Assembly (NCBI GenBank): GCA_002709695.1
Contig: PAQF01000013.1
Location: 102,432-137,154, forward strand
Length of the DNA stretch: 34,723 nucleotides
Direction: 5' to 3'
Origin: Candidatus Poribacteria bacterium
Lineage (GTDB): Bacteria > Poribacteria > WGA-4E > UBA9662
Below the pieces are notes generated by a model. It saw nothing but the letters and a program-made list of their open reading frames with translations, ran no database searches and was not told the origin of the DNA. Position 1 is the first letter of the stretch, and each line of letters opens with the position of its first letter. The position numbers were made by a program, and so were the translations under genes. This document shows, piece after piece, positions 3,036-7,392 of the stretch.

Positions 3036-3920
3036 ATGGAAAAATGGTCTTCTTGTGGTTTTGAATTCGATACTAGCCCGGAAAGGTTTGGTGAATTGCG
3101 CTCATCAAATGACATTCTTGAGGATGGTCAAGCGCTGCGTCACAGGATGAAGCAGGATGGTTATCTTTTATTGCGCCAGATTTTAGATCGGGATATAGTC
3201 ATTGAAGCACGGCATGAGTTAGTTGAGCAATTGGATTCGATTGGCGATATTGACCCTCATTATCCTTTAATTGATGCCATCCTCAACCTGGAATCTAGTA
3301 ACAAGTCTATGAGTGCGACGGGGTTTGCTAAGAAATTAGGGGCTGGGAGAGCCATTCGCCGACTTGTTCATCAAGGTGAGATGATCAAGTTTTATAGAAG
3401 ATTTTTTGGTAGAGGAGTTCGTCCTCTAGATTTTGTTTGGGTGCGAACAACACGGGTGGGATCATCTGCCGCTTGTCACTACGACTGGGTTTATATGGGA
3501 CGGGGTTCTAAACTTCTACATACTAGCTGGACTCCTATTGGGGATGTACCTAAAATAGAAGGATCCCTCGCTATTCTGGAGGGATCTCACCAGTTTGATG
3601 AACTTATCAGTACCTATGGTTCAATTGATGTGGATGATGAGCGAACAAATAAAGAATATAAAGGACAATACACCTCAAATCCGGTTGAAGTACAGAAAAA
3701 ATTTGGGGGAAAATGGTTGACTACCGATTTCAAAGCCGGTGATTTGTTGCTCTTTACTATGCATACGATGCATTGTTCTTTGGATAATAAATCGCCTAAT
3801 AATCGCATTCGTTTGAGTGTAGATACCCGGTACCAACCAGCAGATGAACCTATCGATGAACGTTGGATTGGCAAACACCCTATTGGACATGGAGAGCAAG
3901 CTAAGCGGAACAGCGGATAG
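3036..3920 (+). CDS. Phytanoyl-CoA dioxygenase (PhyH) family protein, copy 1
   Basis: This is a predicted Fe(II)/2-oxoglutarate oxygenase of 294 residues. The facial-triad HxD is visible as CHYDW (H148, D150). The distal His is in MHCSLDN (H246) and is followed by the 2-oxoglutarate-binding Arg region NNRIRLS. The N-terminal MEKWSSCGFEFDTS aligns with the start of the next gene, so the two are tandem paralogues. The family hydroxylates small molecules and many members have unknown substrates. Linkage to a Gfo/Idh/MocA dehydrogenase suggests consecutive oxidation steps on a sugar-like or osmolyte-like compound, which is inference. Confidence 0.88.
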   Translation: MEKWSSCGFEFDTSPERFGELRSSNDILEDGQALRHRMKQDGYLLLRQILDRDIVIEARHELVEQLDSIGDIDPHYPLIDAILNLESSNKSMSATGFAKKLGAGRAIRRLVHQGEMIKFYRRFFGRGVRPLDFVWVRTTRVGSSAACHYDWVYMGRGSKLLHTSWTPIGDVPKIEGSLAILEGSHQFDELISTYGSIDVDDERTNKEYKGQYTSNPVEVQKKFGGKWLTTDFKAGDLLLFTMHTMHCSLDNKSPNNRIRLSVDTRYQPADEPIDERWIGKHPIGHGEQAKRNSG

Positions 3921-3983
3921 GTTCTGTTCGTTCTTCACTATATATTGATTTTGTTTAACAACTGAAAATTTTTGGAGGATACT

Positions 3984-4844
3984 TTGAGGCAATGGACGTC
4001 GTGTGGATACCAATTCAATACTAGCACGGAGAGGTTTGGTGAACTGCGTTCATCAAATGATATTCTTAAAGATGGCCAGGCTCTATCTGAGAGAATGAAG
4101 GATGATGGCTATCTGTTTCTACGTGGTGTTTTGGATAATGATTTGGTGTTAGAAGCTAGGCATGAGCTACTGCTGAAAATGGCGGTTAATAACCAGATTG
4201 ACGATGATTATTTAATTAATGAAGGTATTGACCCAAGTTTAAAAACAGAAGTTGATCAAACAAGTTATCGCGAAGGTCGTGCGGTTAGGCAATTAGCACA
4301 CCAGGGAGAAATGACGGAATTCTATGAAACCTTCTTCGGTAAACAGGTTCAGGCTTTCGATTTTATTTGGGTAAGAATCGTTGGGGTTGGAGTATCAACT
4401 GGTTGCCATTATGATTGGGTGTATATGGGTAGAGGATCGAAAAGTCTGCACACAAGTTGGACCCCACTTGGCGATGTGTCTAAAGTTGAAGGGGCATTGG
4501 CTATTCTGCATGGTTCCCATAAGTTTAGCGGTTTGATTAGTACTTATGGGTCAATTGATGTAGATGATGAGCGAACTAATCAAAAGTATGGAGGATGGTA
4601 TACTCAAAACCCTGTTGAGGTCCAAGAGAAATTCGGGGGGAGATGGCTGACAACTGACTTTGAAATGGGAGATTTAGTTGTGTTTTCAATGCACACAATG
4701 CACTGTTCTCTTGATAATAATTCTCCTAACAACCGAATTCGTTTGAGTTTGGATACCCGCTATCAACCAGCTGGCGACGAGACAGATGAACGTTGGGTTG
4801 GAGAAAGCCCGATGGCTCATGGTGCCGAAGCTAAACGTGGATAA
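3984..4844 (+). CDS. Phytanoyl-CoA dioxygenase (PhyH) family protein, copy 2
   Basis: This tandem paralogue of the preceding gene has 286 residues. I chose TTG 3984 as the start because GGAGGA lies 4 bases before it and because MRQWTSCGYQFNTS then aligns exactly with the start of copy 1. A TTG at 3972 would sit on top of the ribosome site. The iron ligands HxD (CHYDW, H142 and D144), the distal MHCSLDN His and the NNRIRLS Arg are kept, so both copies look catalytically competent. The copies differ most between the N-terminal helix and the HxD strand (about residues 65-100), which may change substrate choice. Confidence 0.87.
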   Translation: MRQWTSCGYQFNTSTERFGELRSSNDILKDGQALSERMKDDGYLFLRGVLDNDLVLEARHELLLKMAVNNQIDDDYLINEGIDPSLKTEVDQTSYREGRAVRQLAHQGEMTEFYETFFGKQVQAFDFIWVRIVGVGVSTGCHYDWVYMGRGSKSLHTSWTPLGDVSKVEGALAILHGSHKFSGLISTYGSIDVDDERTNQKYGGWYTQNPVEVQEKFGGRWLTTDFEMGDLVVFSMHTMHCSLDNNSPNNRIRLSLDTRYQPAGDETDERWVGESPMAHGAEAKRG

Positions 4845-4869: not shown

Positions 4870-5220
4870 TCAGTTAGTTACAATAGCTGCTGAATACCCC
4901 GCGTTTTTGATGGCACTGATAAGTTGTTGGTTTTTAACTTTATTAGGATCAATTTTGACAATTGCTTTGTCAGGCATGGAAACCTTGGCACTAACAACTC
5001 CGTCAACTTTTGTGAGTGCGGACCGCACTCTAGCTACACAGCTAATTCCTCAGGTCATTCCATCGACAGTTAAGGAGATCTGCTGAGCGATTCCCTTTGC
5101 TTTTGTTGTTTTAATCTCTTTACCCTTTTCCGATGTTGTTTCCAGCTTGTGTTCAGAAGCACAGTTAATGAAAAGCATTGTTACTGATACGAGCAAAAAG
5201 AGAAGTTTTACCGAACGCAT
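4870..5220 (-). CDS. Putative selenoprotein: exported heavy-metal-associated (HMA) domain protein with in-frame TGA
   Basis: Read through one TGA (codon 57, bases 5052-5050), the minus strand gives a continuous frame of 116 residues. It has an N-terminal signal sequence (about 1-20, ending FINC, a weak lipobox), a charged linker (about 21-40) and a complete HMA ferredoxin-like domain (about 46-116). The metal motif reads GMT-(TGA)-GISC followed by VARVRSAL; HMA proteins normally have Cys at the TGA position. The domain continues well beyond the TGA (VDGVVSAKV, the DPNKV segment, then IKNAGYSA), so readthrough restores the whole fold. A GGUC-type hairpin starts 19 bases after the TGA. I infer selenocysteine at residue 57. 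The alternative is a recent nonsense mutation of a Cys codon. No Sec machinery is in this window. The plus-strand frame here is an antisense shadow. Confidence 0.72.
5014..5030 (-). promoter_or_regulatory. Candidate bacterial SECIS hairpin
   Basis: On the minus strand the bases GAGTGCG-GTC-CGCACTC form a perfect 7-bp stem. It begins 19 bases after the in-frame TGA at 5052-5050. The apical region contains GGUC, as in the E. coli fdhF SECIS element, and the spacing falls within the range described for bacterial SECIS elements. I do not see a clear bulged U in the stem. The perfect dyad could instead be a DNA operator inside the gene, but its position after a TGA in an HMA motif favours SECIS. 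Confidence 0.6.
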
Positions 5221-5259
5221 TATTTCATAATCCTTTCCTTAAATTGAGTGTCGATTGAT

Positions 5260-5289
5260 ATTCTATTTGTTTAGAATGAGTCATGTCAA
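5260..5289 (-). promoter_or_regulatory. Sigma70-like promoter with overlapping palindrome, for the HMA selenoprotein gene
   Basis: On the minus strand TTGACA (5289-5284) and TAGAAT (5265-5260) are separated by 18 bases, matching 6/6 and 5/6 of the sigma70 hexamers. Transcription would start near 5253, about 30 bases before the ATG at 5220. The ribosome site AAGGAAAGGA lies 10 bases upstream of that ATG. A perfect inverted repeat, ATTCTA-n6-TAGAAT (5260-5277), covers the -10 box and most of the spacer, a usual place for a repressor or metalloregulator operator. The regulator is unknown. Confidence 0.55.
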
Positions 5290-5316
5290 GTTTATTTGTT
5301 TTGTGAGTTTTTCAGT

Positions 5317-7392
5317 ATGAAGAAGTTCTTAATTTTTTCTTCCATTTTATTAATTCCTTCTGTAGTGGTCTTAGCACAAGTGTTAACATTTGATCAGGCT
5401 GTTCAGCGTTACCGAATTCGAGTGCAGAAAGATCCAAAAAATATTGAGATGCATCAGAAGATGGTAGATTATGCGGCTAAGACAAATCAGATGAAAGTCC
5501 CTTTAAGTATTTATCAAGCTGCTTACAAAAAACAACCAAAAAATCCAATTGTGATTTATGTCTTGGCTTATGCTTATCTAGCTAATAATCAAGAAGACAA
5601 GGCGTTTCCGTTGTTGCAGCAGTGTGTGATGACAAAAGTCGATATTTGGCAGGCACATTTGCAATTGGCTAGGTATTTTAAGAGTCATGGTGAGTTTGCA
5701 AAAGCAATCGTCCATTATGAAAATGTAAGAGACCTACATGCCAAATCGATAGTGTATCGTTTTGAAATGGGACAGGTTTACCGAGAACTTGGGGCTTTAG
5801 ATGCTGCTGAGGGTGCTTTTGTGCAGGCAATCGATCATGATAAATTTTCGGCTCAGGCATATTATGAATTGGGTCAAGTTTATGCGCTCCAGAAAATGGC
5901 TGATCGAGCTATTGAACAGTATCGAAAAGGAAAAAAATTAGATCCCGATAATCCTGTTGTGCGATATCAGCTTGCACATATTTTTATTGATAACGATGAT
6001 GGACGCAATGCTATCCTAGCATTGCGTAGTGGTATGAGTGTAGATACTCAGTATTCCCAGGTTGCTAACCGATTGAAAAATGTTAGTAGTCTACAAGCTT
6101 TATCAATCTTAAAACAAATTTTGAGAGTAAAACCAAATAATGCACATTTGCAGTATTTTGTAGCGAAACTATGCAACAAAATTGGTGAAATAGAACAAGC
6201 TGTTTTTCACCTGAAAAGAGCTAAGATTTTGGATCCAATGGATGCAAGTGTGCGGTTTTTGCTTGGGCAGTTGTATGAAGAACAGTCTCAAACTCAGATG
6301 GCAACTGCAGAGTTTGAAGAGGCAACTGCTCTCGATAACGTTCAGCTTGAATTATTGCTTAAGTTAGCTGAAACATATCAGCGTCAAAATAATCAGGAAG
6401 AATTTACTAAGATAGCTGATCAAATACTAGAAATAGATGCGAATCAGCCTGAAATCCATTATCAGCTTTCTCTATATTATGATTACCAATTTCAGCAGAA
6501 AAGGAGAGAGGGGTTAATAGAAGAATCAGAGGCTTTATCAAAAAAAGCGGTTGAACATGCTGATCGGGCTGTAAAATTAGCACCTGATGTTGCTAGATAT
6601 AATCTTATACTTGGGCAACAGTACGATCGTCAAGGGATGTTGAAAGCTATCCGTTTTTATGAGAAGGCTATTCAGCTCGATCCTCAGAATGCGGAACCAT
6701 ATTATCGCCGGGGATTATTTATGTCTAATTTTACGTTTGGGGCGGCTAAGGTTCTCCTTTATGAACCTGAACTCGTAATGGAAGATCTAACACGGGCTGT
6801 TCAGTTGGATCCAGACTCAGCCGGTGCCCACTACGCTCTAGGAGTTGTTTTCGACCGTATGGGTAATGTGCAACAGGCGATGTTAGAATTTAATAAGGTA
6901 GCTAAGCTTGACCCAGCTGATCCTCGCCCTCATTTGTATCTCGGCGAAAAGTATGCTAATAATAGCCAGTTTCAGTTAGCAATTTCTTCTTTTGCGACAG
7001 CAATTAAAATAGATCCAAGTAATGTTGAAGCGTTGAAGGACTATGCGTTCTTGTGTCTTTCACATGACCAAGATCGATTGTGGCGGAATGCTAATAGAGC
7101 ACTTGAGTCAGCGATCAAGATCCGAGCCAATGATGCTGAAATTTTAATGAACTATGCTTATACACTTTACTTGAATGATGAATTTCAACGAGCTGTTGAG
7201 TATTACCAACGTTCCCTTGAGGTTCGACCCAATTGGGAGAAGACTTACTATAACTTGGCCTTGGTGTATGAAAGAACTGGTCAAAGGGGTTTAGCATTTC
7301 AGGCGTATGAAAAAGTTATAAATATAGCACCGAGGAGCCGTCAGGGCATCAAAGCACTTGAGAAAATGAAAAAACTTAAAGGAACAAATTGA
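5317..7392 (+). CDS. Exported TPR-repeat protein
   Basis: The protein has 691 residues from ATG 5317. That start gives a clean signal peptide (MKKFLIFSSILLIPSVVVLAQ), which a start at 5296 would spoil. Almost all of the rest is tetratricopeptide repeats, recognisable by recurring A/G-x3-F/Y patterns and by phrases such as KLDPDNPVVRYQLAHIF, IQLDPQNAEPYYRRG, IKIDPSNVEAL and AYEKVINIAPRS near the C-terminus. No catalytic domain is visible. It probably acts as a periplasmic protein-protein scaffold. Its stop directly abuts the ATG of the YdjY-acylphosphatase gene, so the two are likely co-transcribed. Confidence 0.85.
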   Translation: MKKFLIFSSILLIPSVVVLAQVLTFDQAVQRYRIRVQKDPKNIEMHQKMVDYAAKTNQMKVPLSIYQAAYKKQPKNPIVIYVLAYAYLANNQEDKAFPLLQQCVMTKVDIWQAHLQLARYFKSHGEFAKAIVHYENVRDLHAKSIVYRFEMGQVYRELGALDAAEGAFVQAIDHDKFSAQAYYELGQVYALQKMADRAIEQYRKGKKLDPDNPVVRYQLAHIFIDNDDGRNAILALRSGMSVDTQYSQVANRLKNVSSLQALSILKQILRVKPNNAHLQYFVAKLCNKIGEIEQAVFHLKRAKILDPMDASVRFLLGQLYEEQSQTQMATAEFEEATALDNVQLELLLKLAETYQRQNNQEEFTKIADQILEIDANQPEIHYQLSLYYDYQFQQKRREGLIEESEALSKKAVEHADRAVKLAPDVARYNLILGQQYDRQGMLKAIRFYEKAIQLDPQNAEPYYRRGLFMSNFTFGAAKVLLYEPELVMEDLTRAVQLDPDSAGAHYALGVVFDRMGNVQQAMLEFNKVAKLDPADPRPHLYLGEKYANNSQFQLAISSFATAIKIDPSNVEALKDYAFLCLSHDQDRLWRNANRALESAIKIRANDAEILMNYAYTLYLNDEFQRAVEYYQRSLEVRPNWEKTYYNLALVYERTGQRGLAFQAYEKVINIAPRSRQGIKALEKMKKLKGTN

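Follow-up and report, generated by a model that had tools for sequence, protein, structure and literature searches.

The Sec-HMA Gene and Its Surroundings

The window, that is, the whole stretch of 34,723 nucleotides analyzed here, carries on its minus strand a gene of 116 residues plus stop at positions 4870–5220 (terminal TGA at 4870–4872), with a single internal TGA at 5050–5052. When this TGA, which is also present in the sister gene of genome G001, is read as selenocysteine (Sec, U) at residue 57, the translation is MRSVKLLFLLVSVTMLFINCASEHK...LTVDGMT-U-GISCVARVRSAL...GYSAAIVTN. Under the standard code, gene calling would end the gene at residue 56. The original prediction, made from the letters alone, was of an unannotated selenoprotein gene with a signal peptide, an HMA domain and TGA at the first metal-ligand position; its coordinates and the residue number proved right, and the frame, the domain, the hairpin behind codon 57 and the selenocysteine genes described below were all recovered. 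The HMA domain (Pfam PF00403) covers residues 50–109 (4894–5073, minus strand), residues 46–114 adopt the HMA fold in the structural model, and the score of 44.3 bits is over the gathering cut-off of 24.8.

The second ligand of the motif is Cys61 (codon at 5038–5040, minus strand). The ligand loop, GMT-U-GIS-C, departs from GM-x-C-x-x-C by Sec and by one extra residue, so that U-x-x-x-C exceeds the normal C-x-x-C by one residue. The GM-x-C-x-x-C loop is not present in every HMA domain, and membership is therefore decided by the profile score. The extra residue and a lipoprotein-like leader go beyond what had been predicted. This leader is a signal peptide (5161–5220, minus strand) with a lipobox-like FINC ending in Cys20, which reads FISC in the sister protein of G001; the Asn at position −1 of the lipobox is atypical.

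A promoter and a ribosome site had also been predicted before the gene and were located there on the minus strand. The promoter-like site TTGACA-18-TAGAAT (5260–5289) fits 11 of 12 consensus positions, and two such sites occurred in 751 bases versus 1.4 expected from shuffles; the purine-rich ribosome-binding stretch AAGGAAAGGA lies at 5231–5240. Sites of a similar kind were recognized by eye before the sister gene in G001. A two-codon frame, ATG-AAA-TAA (5220–5228, minus strand), lies behind the ribosome site and overlaps the gene start as TAATG; it is absent before the sister gene in G001.

A divergent gene for a TPR-repeat protein (5296–7392, plus strand) adjoins the Sec-HMA gene in G000, G001 and G002. 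On the other side, two phytanoyl-CoA dioxygenase-like (PhyH) genes in tandem were found beside a Gfo/Idh/MocA oxidoreductase (3036–4844, plus strand), and a PhyH gene also adjoins the Sec-HMA genes of locus L093. Ten neighboring proteins (TPR, PhyH, Gfo/Idh and others) were scanned, and no metal-resistance or mer family was detected among them.

Selenocysteine Machinery and Distribution of the Family

The source genome (5.2 Mb in 87 contigs, 96.15% complete, 2.91% contamination) was searched for selA, selB, selC and selD, the genes that the original prediction had named for checking, and all four were found over cut-off. The scores were 577.1 bits for selA, 343.6 bits for selB on contig C82, 70.6 bits for the tRNA-Sec gene (selC), which lies directly behind selB on C82, and 359.9 bits for selD, with one TGA inside the selD match. 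The Sec machinery is thus complete in the host genome. The tRNA-Sec was also present in nine of the ten other genomes checked, and was missing from G002, which is 80% complete.

Matches to the protein were obtained in all of the 58 genomes searched (its own and 57 of its order), and each genome had, among the matches listed, at least one with an internal TGA. The 30 best matches (L009–L038), from 30 genomes, all had U at the first-ligand column and none had only C. This uniform U was not built into the pattern with which sites were collected; the pattern did require U or C at that column, so that the placement of TGA is partly built into the collected set. The pattern was run on L009–L038, L041 and L071–L113, and L042–L070 (Cys HMA domains of other genomes) were deliberately left out. 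It returned 69 rows, which after removal of one false match (L084, DLFCSFU) gave 62 distinct Sec sites, 56 UxxC and 6 UxxxC, and six Cys copies. These six were the genome's own P-type ATPase, its own 74-residue CopZ-like protein, the fusion proteins L087, L088 and L089, and one repeat of L095. Cys relatives outside the pattern, and not counted among the six, were GLECGKC in G001 (L086) and GMTCPTKC in G084 (L107/L112). The expectation that homologues would show TGA or Cys at the aligned column was thus confirmed. Additionally, a protein scan of named genomes gave 31 loci, with TGA at the column in two (L041 and L071) and Cys in 29, read by the motif pattern or, for L042, L060, L063, L068 and L070, by translation of the matched stretch.

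By a loose pattern, a lipobox-like leader was recognized at 43 of the 49 Sec sites outside fusions; the other six were the GTG-started L017 and the sites of the multi-domain proteins L095 and L105. A Cys relative in G084 looks exported, so exported copies may also be Cys. No match was obtained at E 1e-12 in 12 other genomes of the phylum outside the window's order; this limit was also missed by 30 of 72 genomes of the order, known carriers included, and absence outside the order is therefore not established.

In one relative in G045 (L095:5308–5977, plus strand) the last of four HMA repeats has Cys, and the other three have Sec, each of these with a hairpin of its own. An IS605 OrfB-type (TnpB-like) gene lies upstream of it (L095:3433–4665, plus strand).

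The Hairpin Behind the TGA

A perfect GGUC-topped hairpin had been predicted 19 bases after the TGA, and was found as GAGTGCG-GTC-CGCACTC at 5014–5030 (minus strand), with a perfect stem of 7 bp and the apical loop GUC. It starts 19 nt behind the TGA, its loop lies 26 nt from the TGA, and its energy is −10.7 kcal/mol by itself. The bacterial SECIS model has a loop of 3–9 nt with G in the first two positions and a stem of 4–16 bp, placed 16–37 nt from the UGA, with a minimum free energy of at most −7.5 kcal/mol (PMC13188914). The window hairpin lies within this model in loop, stem, spacing and energy, in agreement with the SECIS element proposed at the outset.

The loop, stem and spacing terms also held at 62/62 collected Sec sites, where the apical loop was always 3 nt with G first and the stem 5–9 bp. 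The energy limit, applied to the hairpin alone, was reached at only 20/62 sites (range −10.7 to −5.1 kcal/mol), and many hairpins fell at −7.4 to −6.2 kcal/mol. The distance from TGA to loop was exactly 23 nt at the 56 UxxC sites and 26 nt at the 6 UxxxC sites.

Across 53 distinct rows the 7-bp helix was paired in 96.5% of cells, versus 19.7–48.2% in slid controls. Both partners had changed in three of the seven helix pairs, including A-U to G-C beside the loop, and G-C to A-U in the stem of L017. With shuffled columns, pairing and covariation score came up to the observed values in 0/500 cases, and doubly changed pairs were as numerous in 13/500; this control does not remove the relatedness of the rows. 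Among the Sec sites the Val codon was GTG at 61/62 and the Ala codon GCA at 60/62, whereas the codon usage of the window favors GTT and GCT. Eight codons over the hairpin are the same in the window gene and the G001 sister. The peptide VARVRSALTK was randomly recoded 200,000 times, following the codon usage of 18 frames of the window; a 7-bp Watson-Crick hairpin arose at the same position in 0.0245% of the trials, and in 0.89% with G-U pairs allowed.

Only 3 of the 1494 TGA triplets of the window, on both strands, are followed by such a G-loop hairpin 16–37 nt on, and two of the three share the SECIS-type hairpin. The remaining one, at 6050 on the minus strand, is followed after 31 nt by a perfect G-loop hairpin of 7 bp, lies antisense inside the TPR gene and is probably due to chance. 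The 55-nt stretch of the window folds with ordinary energy (z −0.86; 34 of 200 shuffles folded as well), and in several of 40 sites (e.g., L011, L012 and L041) the 44-nt piece has a minimum-energy fold other than the hairpin. None of the Rfam families scanned across the window was over its cut-off.

The helix was missing in three of the six Cys copies. The other three, L087, L088 and L089, are cytochrome/WD40 fusions near Sec copies on the domain tree. Four pairs are retained in L087 (−1.3 kcal/mol), six in L088 with a loop lacking G (−6.1 kcal/mol), and six in L089 with a 5-nt loop (−6.6 kcal/mol), the last being much like a weak Sec hairpin.

The UxxxC Variant

The UxxxC motif was found in G000 (GMTUGISC), G001 (GMIUGISC) and G002 (GMTUGVSC), all three of the window's family, and also in G084, a metagenome-assembled genome of Verrucomicrobia, as GMKUGSSC in L041 and as GMKUGVGC and GMKUGNSC in L105. 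These six domains grouped together, with support of 96/83 and in 96% of bootstrap trees, on the domain tree, which has 68 rows and only 68 columns. At E 1e-10 the Sec-HMA family was detected in 1/387 Verrucomicrobia genomes, namely G084, whose tRNA-Sec scored 58.6 bits. Since only this one genome of the 387 matches, we infer that the UxxxC domain was likely passed between phyla. Misbinning could also place UxxxC in G084, but the 375-kb contig with L041, by reading, codes as well for putative phosphate-transport and other cell genes.

A lipoprotein-like Cys relative in the same genome (L107, C93:108377–108679) has the motif GMTCPTKC, a natural CxxxC counterpart of UxxxC. L105 (G084 C31, about 102749–103204) is a double-HMA protein with Sec in both motifs, and two more in-frame TGA codons (frame offsets 22 and 37) lie between a signal-peptide-like start and the domains. 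Export of these domains would need both extra TGA codons to be read through, possibly giving four Sec in one protein.

Cytochrome/WD40 Fusions and Neighboring Cytochromes

In the relatives G005 and G019 the TPR gene is again near the Sec-HMA gene, with a gene for a multiheme cytochrome of 810–862 residues in between. No homologue of this cytochrome was found in the stretches compared for G000, G001, G002 and G012.

Thirteen of the Sec sites lie in fusion proteins. The fusion of the own genome (L078:3995–5646, plus strand) combines WD40 repeats and a PSCyt1 cytochrome with a tail that is the second Sec-HMA domain of this genome (GMTUGAC), has a hydrophobic N-terminus, and is followed by a PSCyt2/PSD1 protein. 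Fusion relatives in G014, G016 and G021 have Cys at the Sec position of the HMA tail. Neighborhood and fusion suggest a place in the envelope and perhaps a part in electron transfer; they name no metal.

Relation to Known Families

Selenoproteins of the HMA/MerP kind are already known, so the window gene is a variant of them. MerP-like selenoproteins of marine metagenomes had been mentioned in the original prediction, and a MerP selenoprotein with two sequences is indeed tabulated for the Global Ocean Sampling set (PMC2398784). That MerP-type protein is likewise predicted to hold Sec, but it is known from a table that gives no motif, and the scanned neighbors of the window gene show no mer family. 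The tables of a 2026 review list a UxxU family (NF041115), a mercuric transport (MerT family) protein and a cation ATPase; NF041115 is entered there as 'Metal-binding protein (putative mercuric reductase)', UxxU (PMC13188914). Sec has been suggested for a few families as a metal ligand of carrier domains and not as a redox catalyst; according to the review, the precise roles of these families need further study (PMC13188914).

The window protein was compared with the profiles of these families. NF041115, a UxxU metal-binding (seleno)protein, gave the best NCBIfam match; like the window protein, it places Sec at the metal site of an HMA-like domain. By contrast, the window protein scored under the cut-off (62.2 vs 95 bits) and has one Sec, UxxxC rather than UxxU, and a lipoprotein-like leader. 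NF045683, a MerT/CopZ fusion-like heavy metal transport selenoprotein, resembles the window domain in its C-terminal part (profile positions 153–231), whereas the window protein has no MerT part and reached 37.6 bits against a cut-off of 375. MerP (TIGR02052, 49.1 vs 92.55 bits) and CopZ (NF047957, 51.6 vs 85 bits) share the fold and the GM-x-C loop, and membership in either was likewise rejected. MerP is also exported, and both MerP and CopZ carry two Cys at C-x-x-C. None of the listed NCBIfam models reached its cut-off for the window protein, L041, the own fusion or a C-terminally shortened piece of L014.

The review text contains none of the terms 'UxxxC', 'HMA', 'lipoprotein' and 'WD40' (PMC13188914), and the open-licence literature returned nothing on UxxxC with selenocysteine or on Poribacteria with a selenoprotein; two papers came up for Poribacteria with selenocysteine. 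No earlier description was found of the U-x-x-x-C spacing, the cytochrome/WD40 fusion or the order-wide spread.

Proposed Role and Alternative Explanations

The sequence evidence suggests that, in a Poribacteria-type relative of sponge symbionts, UGA is read as selenocysteine at the metal-binding site of a small exported protein. UGA codon 57 would be decoded by SelB with tRNA-Sec, steered by the adjacent downstream hairpin. The product would be an HMA-fold protein exported to the envelope and probably anchored in the membrane, with Sec as the first metal ligand. In the AlphaFold2 model, computed from 12 sequences with Cys in place of Sec, residues 41–116 had block pLDDT means of 82–97, and the model superimposed on the solved HMA domains of HMA7 (3dxs) and MerP (1osd) with rmsd values of 1.0 and 1.1, respectively. 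CopZ and MerP bind metal, and pass it on or hold it, with two Cys. By analogy, and as the fold and motif suggest, the Sec57/Cys61 pair may take up a soft metal, with Cu(I) and Hg(II) as the likeliest ions, and pass it on or hold it. As first proposed, Sec in place of Cys might give tighter binding of such a metal, or redox chemistry. The spacing U-x-x-x-C instead of U-x-x-C should alter the geometry or the redox behavior of the site. Our confidence is good in this overall reading, an exported and probably membrane-anchored Sec-HMA protein that uses Sec57 and Cys61 to bind a soft metal for delivery or retention. Weighing against it are the use of Cys in some relatives, the ordinary folding energies, the pairs kept in some Cys copies, the cytochromes near the gene in two relatives, and the lack of a metal-resistance family among the ten neighbors scanned. 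Given that it is a selenoprotein, a soft-metal chaperone or trap in the envelope seems the most likely role, favored by a moderate degree.

The main rival to this soft-metal role is a selenoprotein whose Sec-Cys pair carries out thiol/selenol redox chemistry in the envelope, for instance with c-type cytochromes. Oxidoreductases make up most selenoproteins of known function (PMC2398784), a multiheme cytochrome gene lies near the Sec-HMA gene in two relatives, and one PSCyt1 cytochrome/WD40 protein ends in a Sec-HMA domain. However, the fold is that of an HMA domain with a loop of the GM-x-C type, and the cytochrome of G005 and G019 has no counterpart in the four other stretches compared; redox work is considered the clearly less probable role, at perhaps one chance in a handful.

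An assignment of the window protein as the MerP of a mercury-resistance operon is unlikely, as its resemblance to MerP in fold and domain (TIGR02052; 1osd) stops well short of the family cut-off and no mer family stands among the ten neighbors scanned.

A true stop at the TGA, in a shortened or decayed HMA gene, would agree with the fact that no minus-strand frame of at least 60 aa is listed here under the standard code. By contrast, the comparison of the window gene with its sister in G001 gave dN/dS of 0.247/0.843 before the TGA and 0.118/0.635 over the 58 codons behind it, and such protein constraint behind the TGA speaks strongly against a decayed gene. Nor would a decayed gene retain TGA and hairpin across an order, as is seen at the 62 collected TGA sites with their paired hairpins, and this explanation is regarded as highly improbable. 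Still less credible is a code change in which TGA is read as an ordinary amino acid, for which only the open frame speaks, while TGA ends 10 of the 27 window frames of at least 200 aa and selA, selB, selC and selD are all in the genome.

The exported Sec-HMA protein with a soft-metal site remains the preferred explanation. A broader proposal, in which Sec-HMA lipoproteins, the cytochrome/WD40 tail and the multi-Sec repeats would belong to one order-wide selenium-based metal/redox system of the envelope, and UxxxC would be a new class of ligand loop passed between phyla, is tentative and at present doubtful. A family distributed across an order, whose domain occurs naturally in Sec and Cys versions and has gained a residue in the ligand loop, allows a direct test of why selenium is used here.
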